Source: a virus
DNA: 29,827 bases
Direction: 5' to 3' (one strand)
IMG/VR virus record: IMGVR_UViG_3300037847_001380
Coordinates: 1 to 29,827 of that record
How positions within the stretch are numbered: the first letter of the stretch is position 1; the number at the start of each line of letters is the position of its first letter. This document shows, in pieces, positions 3,470-29,134 of this stretch. The translations under genes and the position numbers were made by a program. The notes under the pieces are model-generated. The model saw nothing but the letters and a program-made list of their open reading frames with translations. It searched no databases and was not told where the DNA came from.

Positions 3470-3769
3470 TTAGCCTTTAAGTTTTTCGATCAAGTGAAGA
3501 GCTGTTCTTACGATATTGTAAGAGGTTACTTTGATGCTGTAAGGATGGTTGCGTGTGTTAAGTTTACCTCCTCCTAATTTACGGATAGCTTTGACCAAGT
3601 TATTGTAAGCAGTTTCGGATTGGTTATAGTCTATACAAGCGAGTTCAGATAAATCACTTGCAGATATTTTATAACGAGGATTGCCGTAAACATCATTTTT
3701 TAACTTAGTAAAATATGTAAGTACATTTTGATTATTGATAGTGGTTGGTTGTGTAGTAGTATTTTTCAT
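3470..3769 (-). CDS. hypothetical early protein, 99 aa
   Basis: Not recognised. A Thr/Asn/Gln-rich N-terminal tail (MKNTTTQPTTINNQN) precedes a helical body with basic patches (KAIRKLGGGKLNTRNHPYS) and a final helix (VRTALHLIEKLKG). The size and basic character would suit a small nucleic-acid-binding protein, but no motif confirms it. The leader contains AACCAATATAACC. Confidence 0.7.
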   Translation of the reverse strand: MKNTTTQPTTINNQNVLTYFTKLKNDVYGNPRYKISASDLSELACIDYNQSETAYNNLVKAIRKLGGGKLNTRNHPYSIKVTSYNIVRTALHLIEKLKG

Positions 3770-5507: not shown

Positions 5508-5533
5508 ATATATTTATTGGTTAGTATTAATTA
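5505..5533 (-). repeat. 29-bp direct repeat, copy 2 (early gene leader)
   Basis: Identical to 5251-5279, at a distance of 254 bp. It covers the start of the 76-aa gene and the stop of the 234-aa gene upstream. Confidence 0.85.
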
Positions 5534-6231
5534 CTTATTGATTGTTCGATTGCTCTTTTCTTTTTGCTTCCGTGAGGATTTATCCATATGGATTTTGCTC
5601 CTATACGATTACCCTTGCACAACTGGCATTGATCGCAAGAAAGACCACGACTATCGGATAAGCATTCTATCGTATCTTTTGGTTGGGTAGGACTAACATG
5701 GAAAAACCTCAGATTCTTTTCTTTTGCTCTTCTTACACTATCGTTAGTCTCTGTACTAGCCATGAAATACTTGCCATATGCTGAAGCTTTTTCTTTGGAC
5801 ATCTCTTTCCAGTCGTGAAAGTATCCCGTCCATCCATCACAACTTTCTGTTATCATTTTAATAATGGACAATGGAATTAGAGAAGGATTGCCATAAGCTC
5901 CAAAGCGTACCTTGCGTCCATTAAAGACATTGTCATATAAGAAAGGGTCAAGTTTAGGATATTTATTTGCTTTGTAACTTTTCCAAATTTGTAGTGGTGC
6001 TTGTCCGACATTAACATAGCAACCTTGTCCGCTAGCAAACTTGCAACCTGTACAAATTGTACTAGCATCGAGTCCTGACTTAACACCATCAACTGGGCTA
6101 TAGTCTGACAATATAATCCAAAGTTGAATCATGTCGCCAGTCTTGCGATTACTTGTTTTAAGGGTAGCTATCACGGCAAACTTTTCGCCGTTCTTACTCC
6201 CTTCATGTATTATAAATCCATTTGGTTTCAT
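5527..6231 (-). CDS. Cys-rich conserved phage protein, gp88/DUF7227-like (tentative)
   Basis: 234 aa. Two cysteine groups can be seen: C60-x2-C63-x7-C71 (STICTGCKFASGQGCYV) and C190, C199-x2-C202-x2-C205 (CDQCQLCKG). Between them are KVRFGAYGNPSLIP, GWTGYFHDW and YFMAST, which I recall as conserved blocks of a widespread phage family similar to mycobacteriophage gp88. Function unproven; the cysteines suggest zinc or an iron-sulfur cluster. I chose ATG 6231, five bases after the previous stop. A TTG at 6291 would add 20 residues but overlaps the upstream gene. The largest early gene other than the polymerase. Confidence 0.6.
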   Translation of the reverse strand: MKPNGFIIHEGSKNGEKFAVIATLKTSNRKTGDMIQLWIILSDYSPVDGVKSGLDASTICTGCKFASGQGCYVNVGQAPLQIWKSYKANKYPKLDPFLYDNVFNGRKVRFGAYGNPSLIPLSIIKMITESCDGWTGYFHDWKEMSKEKASAYGKYFMASTETNDSVRRAKEKNLRFFHVSPTQPKDTIECLSDSRGLSCDQCQLCKGNRIGAKSIWINPHGSKKKRAIEQSISN

Positions 6232-6236
6232 ATTAT

Positions 6237-6365
6237 TTAATCGCTTAGGAGAACTTCTTTTAATTCTGCAATTGACCACCCCGAAAGCCAAGAAAGCTCC
6301 AATAGTGTTATCGATAAATTATTATCAAATGTGTCTATTACTTTTTCTTTTGTCCATTTATTCAT
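6237..6365 (-). CDS. small first gene of the early run, 42 aa
   Basis: MNKWTKEKVIDTFDNNLSIT followed by LLELSWLSGWSIAELKEVLL; acidic and helical, Trp-rich. The first reading frame after the long non-coding region and only 5 nt before the Cys-rich protein gene. The long A/T-rich leader has AACCAAATTT about 35 nt upstream and no Shine-Dalgarno. Not recognised. Confidence 0.55.
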   Translation of the reverse strand: MNKWTKEKVIDTFDNNLSITLLELSWLSGWSIAELKEVLLSD

Positions 6366-6604: not shown

Positions 6605-6722
6605 ATTTTGATTAGTCAAAGTACATAGTTTGATAGATAGAAGTCTATAGTTTGATTAACAAATCTTTAAAGTTTGATAAGTGAAAGTAAAGAGTTTGAA
6701 AGGTAGTACTTTATAGTTTGAT
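6605..6722. repeat. six AGTTTGAT-like boxes at exact 22-bp period
   Basis: Boxes start at 6605 (ATTTTGAT), 6627, 6649, 6671, 6693 (AGTTTGAA) and 6715; the other four are AGTTTGAT. Every start-to-start distance is 22 bp, about two helical turns, while the 14-bp spacers differ except for a T/A-rich bias before each box. This is what a protein-binding iteron array looks like. T7 also has arrays of short repeats next to its terminal repetition. Confidence 0.85.
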
Positions 6723-6763
6723 AGATGAAAATTAAACGAAAAAGAAAAATCAAATTTACAAGT

Positions 6764-6828
6764 GTCTCAACAAAGTCTCAATAAGCAAAAATGGATCTAC
6801 TCTTTAGTCAGTCTCAATAGCGTCTCAA
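6764..6828. repeat. four GTCTCAA boxes in two 11-bp-spaced pairs
   Basis: GTCTCAA starts at 6764, 6775, 6811 and 6822. Within each pair the distance is 11 bp, one helical turn, so the boxes face the same side of the helix. It lies 42 bp from the 22-bp array and looks like a second set of binding sites. Confidence 0.8.
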
Positions 6829-6931
6829 TAAAGATAAATATCCTATTAATTAGACATAATCCTTATTGTACGAATTATTGAAGCGTTGATAATCAACAAC
6901 TTATGTTTTTAACAAGAAAAATTTAACAATA

Positions 6932-6996
6932 TCCTACCCCGACAGAGATTTTTTACTAGGGGATGATGGGGAGTAGGACGGCAGCGTATATAGCGT
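6932..6996. repeat. GC-rich inverted repeat with adjacent 9-bp direct repeat
   Basis: TCCTACCCC (6932-6940) can pair with GGGGAGTAGGA (6968-6978) with one bulged A. Immediately after comes AGCGTATATAGCGT (6983-6996), a direct repeat of AGCGT with a 9-bp period around TATATA. This GC-rich island stands out sharply in A/T-rich surroundings; it could be a structured RNA, a packaging or cleavage site, or a binding site. Confidence 0.6.
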
Positions 6997-7041
6997 AACC
7001 CCCTCAAATTTTTTCAACTTAAATTTAAAAGGATCTAATAA

Positions 7042-7248
7042 CTACAAACCTTGAGTATCCTCATCAATGTCATCATCTTCTAGGAAGTCTGGATCAAATT
7101 CTATTACACTGGTAGCTAGTAGGTCATACTTAACGAACTCCAGGATGCCTATAATGGTTTGGTCATTCAAATCGAATTCCTTTTTATAACGATTTATTAT
7201 ATTGCATAAGTCGTTGGTTAGCATATCTGTCTGAGTGTTTATATCCAT
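7042..7248 (-). CDS. hypothetical acidic protein, 68 aa
   Basis: MDINTQTDMLTNDLCNIINR, then a helical body and a strongly acidic end (EFDPDFLEDDDIDEDTQ). Not recognised. It stands alone in the junction region, just downstream of the best sigma70-like promoter candidate (TTGCTA-17-TATAAT at 7285-7313), so it may be the first gene transcribed after infection. No Shine-Dalgarno. Confidence 0.6.
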   Translation of the reverse strand: MDINTQTDMLTNDLCNIINRYKKEFDLNDQTIIGILEFVKYDLLATSVIEFDPDFLEDDDIDEDTQGL

Positions 7249-7643: not shown

Positions 7644-7711
7644 GTCTTTATCGAACAGAGTGAGTAAAGACGAAAGGTAATAGCAAAGCTATTGCCAGAG
7701 CATAGCTCTGG
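7644..7711 (-). repeat. three consecutive hairpins across the end of terL
   Basis: Perfect inverted repeats: CCAGAG-5-CTCTGG (7695-7711, last terL codons), AATAGC-AAA-GCTATT (7679-7693, includes the stop codon), and GTCTTTA-14-TAAAGAC (7644-7671). No U-run follows, so these are not simple terminators. They may protect or process the mRNA 3' end, or mark DNA near the packaging end. Confidence 0.7.
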
Positions 7712-9368
7712 GACCTTTAAGACTTCTCTTATAAAAGCTATCAGTAAACTTTGTTAACTCTTCATCAAGTAGTTCTTGTTTCCTAAAGTTTATGTTATTA
7801 TCAACATCCTGATTCATTTGTTCTACCCAATAGTTAACAGCAATACTTAAAGCATCTAATCTATCATCGTGATTAAGACTGCCTTTATCTTTTGTTATCC
7901 TTGATAGTTGATACATAAGCATATACTTAGCTTGGTGTTCTATAGGATAGCTTTGAGCACTTTTATAGTCATGTTGAATGACAGAAGGGTCAACGATAAG
8001 TTTATGTTGATTAAGGACAGGTTCAAGGACATCAATGATTCTAAGTTCCTTTTGTTTGTTATGTCTTACTTCTTCAATGGAACAAGGGTATGAGGTAACA
8101 AACAGAGGAGTTATAAGCTCTTTAAACATACCATCACCAAAGTTAGACTCTATGATGACTTTGTTAACTTTGTTATTCTTAGCTATATAGACTAGTTGTT
8201 TAAGTGTTTGTTCATCGTAACCACCTTTTAGACCACCAGCTTCAGGAACAAAGAGTTGACCGTTAAGCATCTTAACTACAGCGTACCCTGTTTCATCGCT
8301 TCCTCGACCACTGGGGTCAATAGACAAGACAGAACCTGTGTACTCCACCATATCACCTATAGTTTTGTAAGGTCTATGGTATCTGTCTCCACCTAGTCCT
8401 ACATTGGGAAGATCTTTGTTTTCGTTATCAGGGTCACTGGACCACATGATTTTTTCAGGGGCAAGGTCTACATCTACATCAGAAACAATAAGATCGTTAA
8501 TCTTCAAGGGATACCTGTCAGCATCTGAAAGCCTTGGGTTAAGCATGAATTGAAGAGCATACCCAGTTCTACCGTAGGATAGCTTTCTTTCCTCTAAGTC
8601 CATATCAGAGAACCTTAAAGGCTCTGTAGAGCGTCCTACTGTATCTTCATTGATTTGATCCTGTATAAAGGGTGCTATGTCGTTATCATAGTTCTTCAGT
8701 ACTAAATCCTTACTAGGGTACTCAGAAGTCCATATACGAGCGTCATAGCCTCTTTCTCTCAGTTTGTTATAGATGGAGTCCTCGCATTGGGGAGTGCCTA
8801 GAAAGAGTATCCTGGAGGTGTCTAAGGGCTTTATGATAGCTTCAAACTCCTTTACTTGTTCATCTAGCTTATCACGCATACCTTGGGTAGCAGAGTTGTT
8901 AGGTACTTCTATATCGTCAGCAATGATGATGTCAGCACGGCTACCTGTTAACTGGGAGGATATACCCAGGGATTTAACGGAGGGAGCGTGAGCAGCAGGA
9001 GCAGGACCTACATCAAAAGCTATCTTAGAGAATCTTTGGTCACCCTTTGGTACTAGACCTTGAAGAACGGGAATGTCGTGTATGATTTTCAAGGTGAAGG
9101 TGGAGAAGTCATCAGCTCTGTTTTTAGAGGCAGACACTACAAGGATGTTCTTAGTGGGGTCTAGGAGTAGTTGATGGACAGCATAAGCTGAACATATCCA
9201 GGACTTACCTACTCCACGAAAAGCCATGATTAACGATCTTTTAGGACCGTGTTGCATGAAGTCAGCTATATCGTATTGCAGATCAGTAGGATCAGGTAGG
9301 TTAAGGTGCTTCCAAACTATATATAAGAAGTTACGGAAGTCCTTGAGTTGGTTAAGTTTTTCTTTCAA
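7689..9368 (-). CDS. terL: terminase large subunit (DNA packaging ATPase/nuclease, T7 gp19-like)
   Basis: Motor that pumps DNA into the prohead at the portal and cuts the concatemer. 559 aa (T7 gp19: 586). Walker A at about residues 50-56 (FRGVGKS; T7 FRGIGKS), Walker B at 147-154 (IIIADDIE), and nuclease acidic residues D351 (SIDPSGRGSDETGYAVV), the NFGDGMF block near 409-415, and D501/D502/D505 (HDDRLDAL). The match to T7 gp19 continues through most of the protein. The start is a TTG: no ATG lies between the upstream in-frame stop and the conserved N-terminus (FLYIVWKHLNLPDPT; T7 FLFVLWKALNLPVPT). The last codons form a hairpin. Last gene of the late operon. Confidence 0.97.
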   Translation of the reverse strand: MKEKLNQLKDFRNFLYIVWKHLNLPDPTDLQYDIADFMQHGPKRSLIMAFRGVGKSWICSAYAVHQLLLDPTKNILVVSASKNRADDFSTFTLKIIHDIPVLQGLVPKGDQRFSKIAFDVGPAPAAHAPSVKSLGISSQLTGSRADIIIADDIEVPNNSATQGMRDKLDEQVKEFEAIIKPLDTSRILFLGTPQCEDSIYNKLRERGYDARIWTSEYPSKDLVLKNYDNDIAPFIQDQINEDTVGRSTEPLRFSDMDLEERKLSYGRTGYALQFMLNPRLSDADRYPLKINDLIVSDVDVDLAPEKIMWSSDPDNENKDLPNVGLGGDRYHRPYKTIGDMVEYTGSVLSIDPSGRGSDETGYAVVKMLNGQLFVPEAGGLKGGYDEQTLKQLVYIAKNNKVNKVIIESNFGDGMFKELITPLFVTSYPCSIEEVRHNKQKELRIIDVLEPVLNQHKLIVDPSVIQHDYKSAQSYPIEHQAKYMLMYQLSRITKDKGSLNHDDRLDALSIAVNYWVEQMNQDVDNNINFRKQELLDEELTKFTDSFYKRSLKGPRAMLWQ

Positions 9369-27580: not shown

Positions 27581-29134
27581 TTATTCTTCTTGTTGTTGTT
27601 GTGCCATGTACTGCTCCTGTGCAGCATTGATAGCAGGGGCTACAGCAGGTTGACCTAACTTCATTAACATCTCTTGTTGTTGTGCCATCTGCATAGCTTG
27701 TTGAATTTCTTCTTCTGTCTTGATCAATCCTTCAGTCTCAATACCTAATGCTGTGGCTCTTCTTTTGAAGTAGTCAGATACATTAACATACTCTGCAACT
27801 GCTTGAGGACCAACGATTTGATTAGCTCCTGCAAGGAATAGATCAAGCTTCTGTAAATCATTACCTCGTCCTAGTGCTTCAACACCAGTAACAATAGTAG
27901 GTTTAACAATGTCTTTAGGTAACTTAGGTAGTCTTCTTTCTTTTGACATCCTAGCCATCAACCTTGTTACTACAGGCATTTGAAACTCTTGAGACAGTAA
28001 CGAATAAAGACCACCTAGTGCAGCTTCCAACTCCTGAGATAACATTCTTATCTCCTCTGCTGTTACTCGTTCTGCATCTCTGACTACTCCACTATTCAAT
28101 AGGAATGCTTGTGATAAACGATCACTGATTCCATTCATTACTGACTGTGCAGTTCTGAAGTCATTGAACTTGTTAAGTTGTAATACAGATACATCTCCGT
28201 CACTGCCTTGTACAATAGCACCGTTAGGAGATTCAGATAAAGTCTTAGCTCTTGTCGTACCGTTAGGATTAACCATGAACAATACTTTAGCTGCTGCTGC
28301 ACTACCCTCTACGATAGCTTTAGTCAGAGCTTCAAGGGATTTAAGATCTCCTATATACTCCTCTACAAATCCTCTACCGTAGTCTTCACCGTCTATCCTG
28401 GTGTATCTGAGAGGCAGGAATGGAGTCTTTTCTATTGGATATCTACCTATCGACTCTTCTATGACCATTCCTTTTACATCCTGTTGTACTACAAACTCAT
28501 TGCCTTCTCTAACTACAGAGGTGTACAAGTCACAACTATTCTCTTTCTCTTGACGATATACTTCATCTCTAACAGACTCAGGTAACATCATAGGAGCAAC
28601 AGTTTCCTTGATAGCTATGTGTGTTACATTGCCCATTGGGTCTCTTTTAACTACATAACGGTCTAACCTGAACACCCTCATACCACCCTCATCAGGTAAG
28701 TATAACAAAGTATTTCCTGTTACTAATAAATTCTTTAACGCTTCAAAGACTCCTACTCTAAATGCTTCTACCTCAACCTCTTGTGAAACACTTCGTTCTA
28801 CATCTGCTAAAGCTTTCTCTAAATCAGATCGTAGTTGCTCTGCTCCCTCTGGTCCTAACTCCTGTTTTGCTTTATCCAATTCGTACCTGTCAATGACAAG
28901 GCGAAAGAAAGGAGCGTTAGGTGGTAACAAGGCTAACAAAAGTTTAGAGGCAAGGTTGTTAACTCCTCTAGCCCCTACTCCTTGATACGGTGTGTAATAC
29001 TTAGTAGCGTAGTTATGTCCATCAGGAGGCATTACATAAGGAATAGTCAACTCAGATGAGGTTCTACCTCTATCCAAGAAAGACCACCTTTGGTTCTCTA
29101 AGCTACTGTATAGCCCTTGTGCTGTTTCGTGCAT
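27581..29134 (-). CDS. portal (head-tail connector) protein, T7 gp8-like
   Basis: 517 aa (T7 gp8: 536). Twelve-fold ring at one vertex through which DNA enters and leaves. Typical blocks: LENQRWSFLDRGRTSSELTI, YQGVGARGVNNLASKLLLAL, LPPNAPFFRL, VTGNTLLYL, RYTRIDGEDYGRGFVEEYIG, RVTAEEIRMLSQELEAALGG. The C-terminus is Gln-rich. The stop is 8 bp before the scaffold start. A short 3-bp gap separates it from the 77-aa gene upstream. Confidence 0.96.
   Translation of the reverse strand: MHETAQGLYSSLENQRWSFLDRGRTSSELTIPYVMPPDGHNYATKYYTPYQGVGARGVNNLASKLLLALLPPNAPFFRLVIDRYELDKAKQELGPEGAEQLRSDLEKALADVERSVSQEVEVEAFRVGVFEALKNLLVTGNTLLYLPDEGGMRVFRLDRYVVKRDPMGNVTHIAIKETVAPMMLPESVRDEVYRQEKENSCDLYTSVVREGNEFVVQQDVKGMVIEESIGRYPIEKTPFLPLRYTRIDGEDYGRGFVEEYIGDLKSLEALTKAIVEGSAAAAKVLFMVNPNGTTRAKTLSESPNGAIVQGSDGDVSVLQLNKFNDFRTAQSVMNGISDRLSQAFLLNSGVVRDAERVTAEEIRMLSQELEAALGGLYSLLSQEFQMPVVTRLMARMSKERRLPKLPKDIVKPTIVTGVEALGRGNDLQKLDLFLAGANQIVGPQAVAEYVNVSDYFKRRATALGIETEGLIKTEEEIQQAMQMAQQQEMLMKLGQPAVAPAINAAQEQYMAQQQQEE

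Follow-up and report, generated by a model that had tools for sequence, protein, structure and literature searches.

What is the function of two sets of regularly spaced short repeats that lie between the terminase gene and the early genes of a T7-like marine phage? The window analysed here is the whole of a 29.8-kb virus record (IMGVR_UViG_3300037847_001380; 29,827 nt), whose genes are on the minus strand. It carries the gene set of a T7-like podovirus, namely a T7-type terminase, a tail fibre N-terminal domain, a nozzle, a Gp10A-like capsid and a head-tail connector, together with a partial RNA polymerase gene. The terminases nearest to that of the window are 60-65% identical and belong to marine phages, while megablast against phage records gave no match to a close phage record. 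For comparison, about 100 close relatives were identified in IMG/VR with the terminase and an early gene. Read in the coding orientation, the order is terminase, orf68, a GC-rich motif, a dif-like site, two TTGAGAC pairs, a conserved core, the 22-bp array, an AT-rich spacer and the early genes, so that the arrays sit between the terminase and the early genes. The features are as follows:

7689..9368, minus strand: terminase large subunit (T7 type), upstream neighbour of the array region (PF22530, E=5e-40; phrog_38, E=3e-116).
7042..7248, minus strand: orf68, a small acidic protein conserved beside the array region (found by tblastn in most relatives).
6984..7002, minus strand: GC-rich motif GGGGTTACGCTATATACGC, just after orf68 (a single copy per genome, nearly invariant in seven genomes).
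6849..6876, minus strand: dif-like (XerCD) site, AATTCGTACAA-TAAGGA-TTATGTCTAAT (pattern matches in GTDB contigs; present in relatives).
6811..6828, minus strand: putative Fur-type operator pair 1, TTGAGAC-GCTA-TTGAGAC (a like element precedes host fur and leuC).
6764..6781, minus strand: putative Fur-type operator pair 2, TTGAGAC-TTTG-TTGAGAC (a like element precedes host fur and leuC).
6733..6760, minus strand: conserved, promoter-like core that separates the two operator slots and reads TGTAAATTTGATTTTTCTTTTTCGTTTA in the window (present in 37 distinct relatives regardless of which operators flank it).
6605..6730, minus strand: 22-bp array, cassette B1, six putative MntR/DtxR-type operator boxes (period test, arm analysis, matches upstream of host mntR/dtxR, copies in unrelated phages).
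6721, 6699, 6677, 6655, 6633 and 6611, minus strand: starts of the TCAAAC(T) right halves.
6607-6620, minus strand: perfect palindrome TTTGA-CTAA-TCAAA.
5527..6291, minus strand: early-side neighbour gene, phrog_2554, of unknown function (E=1e-46; conserved in 36 loci).
3470-3769, minus strand: 99-aa protein (TreK, E=2e-6; weak Rep3_N match, E=0.009, below its cut-off).

Both arrays are present as the original prediction described them. Six AGTTTGAT-like octamers follow one another in exact 22-bp steps (starts 6605 (ATTTTGAT), 6627, 6649, 6671, 6693 (AGTTTGAA) and 6715), and GTCTCAA forms two pairs 11 bp apart (starts 6764 and 6775, 6811 and 6822), with one copy only, at 27735, elsewhere on the plus strand of the whole window. 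In the minus, gene-coding orientation, the 22-bp boxes read TCAAAC(T) and the pair boxes read TTGAGAC. Because the region is AT-rich and variable, it might hold chance or neutral repeats left by slippage, but the probability of this is close to negligible. Using a period statistic based on the best 8 columns over 6 copies (periods 9-30, maximum 48), the region scored 46 at period 22; the intergenic region, shuffled 1000 times with dinucleotides preserved, reached at most 38 (mean 34.0, sd 1.0), and 50 whole-window shuffles never exceeded 37. The periodicity is thus far outside that of shuffled DNA (46 vs <=38), which is the comparison that had been proposed for it. Chance and slippage are also contradicted by the recurrence of the array in at least 17 distinct relatives, where the box is kept and the spacer is not, and in an unrelated phage family.

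The box of the 22-bp array makes up half of a palindrome of 14 bp, TTTGA-N4-TCAAA. Only one of the six boxes in the window is a perfect copy (6607-6620); the left arm is 4/5 in two boxes and a degenerate 2-3/5 in the remaining three, which, like the other imperfect boxes, keep mainly the right half of the palindrome. Since only one box is the full palindrome, the array of the window may be a weaker or derived form.

The dif-like site bears on the identity of the host. Run on the GTDB collection, the search pattern CGYACAATAnnnATTATGTCYAAT matched at least 118 contigs, and the names among the matches listed are nearly all those of Opitutia or other Verrucomicrobiota; the consensus derived from the host matches is CGCACAATATATATTATGTCTAAT. 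The same pattern is found in at least 119 viral contig stretches, many of them from the phage family of the window. The relatives carry the chromosomal dif consensus of Opitutia, which is therefore the probable host group. Taken together, the dif and operator matches, on which the assignment is based, point to Opitutia (Verrucomicrobiota) as the host.

On the phage genomes, the 6-bp centre of the dif-like site is variable, and its orientation is inverted in several relatives (L014, L042, L056, L063 and L076). In one 38.5-kb relative (L006/L083), both contig ends are at the dif-like site, three bases apart as judged against its close relative L004. A dyad such as GTTGATTATCAAC (TAAGTCGTTGATAATCAACGACTTA-like), at about 6885-6905 on the minus strand of the window, flanks the site both in the T7-like phages and in a second group of marine phages, termed C75C1-like; it is absent beside the host dif sites looked at, and may assist Xer recombination as an accessory site. 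Host XerCD/dif is used by CTXphi and other filamentous phages (PMC3025954, PMC5357621), which are similar to the present phages in having a dif-like site with a variable centre on the phage genome. The present phages differ in that they are tailed and T7-like, with no integrase or repressor found and no integrated copy at the 118 host dif loci. Phage genes were found at none of these 118 loci and TerL in none of 286 Opitutia genomes; hence, there is no sign of lysogeny, and prophage integration at dif is unsupported, though the site is kept.

The definition of the 14-bp palindrome came from phage DNA and preceded the host search. In a separate check on 30 homologous regulators, 12 of the 30 Opitutia genomes have it in perfect form upstream of their mntR/dtxR-family gene, as compared to none of 30 fur upstream regions (binomial P ~1e-30 for the regulator upstream regions, with the background rate from G010). 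In G010, a marine Opitutales genome, the palindrome lies in the intergenic region that separates a DtxR/MntR-family regulator from a ZnuA-type metal ABC transporter, and the extended form CTTTGA-N4-TCAAAG has its one exact copy in 1.72 Mb (about 3/4 of the genome) at this locus. In another genome (G054), the palindrome precedes a ZnuA-type metal transporter gene. The name MntR/DtxR is based on Pfam domains and on the transporter neighbour, and the metal sensed is given as Mn or Fe. The 22-bp boxes are accordingly named here as predicted operators of a host MntR/DtxR-family repressor, which we infer to bind them. Hosts carry single sites, and so the 22-bp array itself is not above chance in host genomes (3 genomes vs 2 for the reversed control).

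An iteron replication origin was one of the readings first proposed for the array. R6K carries 22-bp iterons, and the period of the direct repeats, which lie in AT-rich DNA, is like that of plasmid iterons; the product of the ORF at 3470-3769 also has the weak Rep3_N match listed above. However, neither the other full relatives nor the other B1-bearing phages tested have this ORF, no initiator (Rep) gene is conserved in the early regions, and the box is the predicted operator of a host metalloregulator family, all of which makes an iteron origin very improbable. The same ORF was rejected as the source of a cognate regulator, since the other B1-bearing phages tested lack it. A search of the phage early regions for HTH or repressor genes gave none that was convincing, only C5 methylases and the TreK-like protein.

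The TTGAGAC pairs have a different counterpart. In Opitutia, the exact TTGAGAC-N4-TTGAGAC pair is directly upstream of a Fur-family gene (PF01475, E=7e-23), and the element is found just ahead of the fur start codon throughout Opitutales. Among Opitutales fur upstream regions, 19 of 30 score at least 12/14 for the pair; in the 30 mntR upstream regions used as control, the maximum is 10. A similar pair, TATTGAGACnCTTTTGAGAnT, is conserved before leuC, which encodes an Fe-S enzyme, in six Opitutia genomes (L422, L423, L424, L425, L427 and L428), leuC being the single further iron-related target found. The pair as the mark of a large host regulon was rejected, given that no more than 3 of 286 genomes have an exact match, which in two of the three is at fur. 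By inspection, the pair does not have the form of the canonical 19-bp palindromic Fur box (GATAATGATAATCATTATC): unlike the palindromic E. coli Fur box, the element of host and phage is an 11-bp direct repeat, and this lineage-specific Fur-family assignment is based on position, not on consensus. We conclude that the TTGAGAC pair is a Fur-family operator of the host group, presumably bound by the Fur-family protein itself. The suggestion of an early operator was close, but it did not foresee two different regulators, both of them the host's.

Comparison with the relatives indicates which parts of the region are under constraint. The 11-bp spacing inside the TTGAGAC pair is fixed, while the distance from pair to pair varies between 38 and 72 bp. 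Arrays of the B1 type occur in 17 distinct forms with 2-6 boxes, in which spacings of 23 bp (25 cases) are commoner than those of 22 bp (16 cases); the exact 22-bp period is hence not universal. Across at least 17 distinct relatives, boxes are kept and spacers are not. This bears out the claim that boxes and phase are conserved, and suggests that the boxes behave like sites for a DNA-binding protein, as had been proposed.

The arrays occupy two slots on either side of the core. Slot A, upstream of the core, contains A1 (the TTGAGAC pair), A2 (TTGATAATnnGTTATCA), A3 (with TGACGTCA) or A4 (ending in TGATGCGTTGATG), and slot B, downstream of it, contains B1 (the 22-bp array of the window) or one of B2 to B6. 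Cassette B6 consists of six tandem TGTATA-N5-TATACA palindromes after the core (L240, L256 and L026). The A and B types are in almost free combination among the relatives, which is the signature expected of swappable binding sites. Related phages without the boxes and the spacing had been named as a refutation, and on this point the result is mixed: many of the relatives do not have these boxes, yet the same place holds another operator set. In 37 relatives, the distance from the end of slot A to the core (TGTAAATTTG...) is 0-7 bp, and that from the core to the start of slot B is about 10-12 bp.

This geometry raises the question of control in cis, whereby host Fur and MntR, or other host regulators in the relatives, would flank a promoter core and gate early transcription according to metal or metabolite status. 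The region precedes the early genes, the first TTGAGA of pair 2 is 17 bp before the TAAATT of the core, and the fixed distances of the operators on either side of the core in the 37 T7-like relatives fit control in cis at least as well as they fit decoys. On the other hand, the TTGAGA-17-TAAATT match in the window is not above shuffle expectation, and, by our own reading, the -35-like hexamers are missing with cassettes A3 and A4. A variant of control in cis takes in the adjoining host dif site and sees in the region a possible switch for lysogeny or dormancy, built from parts of the host; against it stand the absence of phage genes at the dif loci and of TerL in the Opitutia genomes. Overall, we give control in cis a serious chance, though one well short of even. 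In two relatives (L010 and L014), a sigma-54-like promoter (TTGGCATCAAGTTTGCTT) stands in for the usual early-gene leader upstream of the first early gene.

The position beside the terminase genes, which holds in both phage families, is also that of the T7-like terminal repeats, and T7 has short repeats, SRL and SRR, beside its terminal repetition. The arrays had been proposed as a functional analogue of these, in which case they would be a packaging or terminus signal bound by the small terminase subunit. Short spaced repeats at the terminase/early-gene junction are indeed common to both, but sequence and period are different, the boxes of the window match host operators, including the predicted mntR operator, and close relatives differ in the sequence. 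Phages with closely similar TerL have among them at least six different slot-B arrays, and the arrays in the slot differ widely even where TerL is about 90% and the small terminase subunit 67-91% identical. Moreover, contig ends, taken as a proxy for physical termini, are scattered over the region with no clustering at one base. We therefore regard a packaging role for the arrays as improbable. The GC-rich motif GGGGTTACGCTATATACGC is a possible candidate for a terminase, packaging or terminus signal; as a late promoter it was rejected, since there is one copy only per genome.

Other cassettes were also compared with host genomes. In G010, cassette A4 has an exact match before metH, whereas its copies before metF and metK carry 1 or 2 mismatches. 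The full A4 element is the palindrome CATCAACGCATCATGATGCGTTGATG, with sites at L543:17655, L530:9555 and L584:9201 (metH, metF and metK, respectively, of the marine Opitutales genome), and these sites constitute a predicted methionine/SAM-cycle regulon. The A4 core is present in 61 viral contigs, 56 of which have proteins in common with the two phage families. Three copies of element Uc (TGCAA-N5-TTGCA) are present in the 1.72 Mb of G010, and two of these immediately precede genes; the element is tentatively a zinc (Zur-type) operator. Uc-like sites (L541:8229, L608:4770 and L549:4355) are found before a MerC-like gene, recognized by eye, and two other genes for small or outer-membrane proteins. 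The A2 palindrome has one match in hosts, before a TonB-dependent receptor, which is too little for naming a regulator. For cassettes A2, A3, Ua, Ub and B2-B6, a host-operator match is absent or tentative only.

The C75C1-like marine phages (about 36-39 kb; L441, L450, L454, L457, L458/L471-L472 and L461; G007-G009) are unrelated to the T7-like family in their core genes and have in common with it an MntR-type array, a SAM operator, a Fur-type pair or dif. On account of these shared elements, their host is probably also Opitutia. Their array, which stands upstream of the terminase operon, is cleaner than that of the window: it comprises 6 or 8 perfect TTTGA-N4-TCAAA palindromes in exact 22-bp steps, and it ends 116-122 bp before the putative -35 of that operon. 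Simple occlusion is disfavoured in these phages because of this distance, which likewise speaks against control in cis. Tandem MntR-type palindromes are found in 22 contigs, five of which add to the C75C1-like group and have two palindromes each; four of these five have the site at about 150-260 bp from the small terminase gene. A search for proteins common to the two families, as a possible phage-coded binder, gave only weak, short or fibre-type matches. These comparisons show operator-like boxes, at two-turn spacing, to be swapped as modules between phages, even unrelated ones.

The explanation that we put first is that the arrays are Opitutia host-operator cassettes that titrate host repressors, a view that we hold to be evenly balanced between true and false and that, like all the conclusions here, comes from sequence comparison. 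The region would be an operator cassette copied from the Opitutia host, with two Fur-family pairs and a six-box MntR/DtxR array in which the 22-bp spacing would line up neighbouring dimers along the same face of the DNA. Host Fur and MntR would bind the phage boxes, and, as the phage genomes multiply, the many copies of the boxes would, with about equal probability either way, titrate the repressors. Host metal uptake would then be derepressed, along with the methionine/SAM cycle in the relatives, in favour of phage production, and the regular spacing would pack the most independent sites into a short stretch. Titration is put first because the sites exceed what a promoter needs (6 boxes in the window and up to 8 in C75C1-like phages vs single sites at host promoters), because the C75C1-like array is 116-122 bp from the -35, and because each regulator identified controls the supply of nutrients or cofactors. 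It is the most likely of the explanations, with control in cis close behind, and the two are not exclusive. Two points bear on its extent. The affinity of the MntR-type boxes of the window may be low, since five of the six left arms are imperfect, and Fur is abundant in known bacteria, so that two pairs per genome may titrate little.

Titration by operator copies has a laboratory parallel in the Fur titration assay (FURTA) and other multicopy-operator methods, in which many copies likewise sequester a repressor and derepress its host regulon; the case proposed here from sequence differs in being natural, phage-borne and multi-regulator. Fur boxes are known in phage and prophage promoters, as in the Fur control of the stx1 promoter. 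Such boxes also represent a host metalloregulator site on phage DNA, whereas the present phages have tandem arrays for two regulators in two exchangeable slots, in unrelated phages and with no evident cargo gene. A literature search found no paper on phage-borne operator decoys.

The arrays may thus tie infection to metal supply, either by pulling repressors off host genes or through repressor control of the phage. In its widest form, to which we give slightly less than an even chance, the proposal is that two families of Opitutia phages carry exchangeable decoy operators (for Fur, MntR/DtxR, methionine/SAM, possibly Zur, and others) that would open host nutrient acquisition during infection with no protein involved, the choice of cassette recording the nutrients that limit phage production. 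Predicted operators are gained for Fur, MntR/DtxR and a methionine/SAM regulator in Verrucomicrobiota, and dif offers a route to host assignment for many unassigned marine virus contigs. If the proposal is true, unrelated phages of a single host group would exchange operator sites as modules, and viruses would be able to reprogramme the metal and SAM metabolism of their hosts by means of DNA sites only, with no need of auxiliary metabolic genes; it would become a testable question which regulons of the host marine phages have to open.
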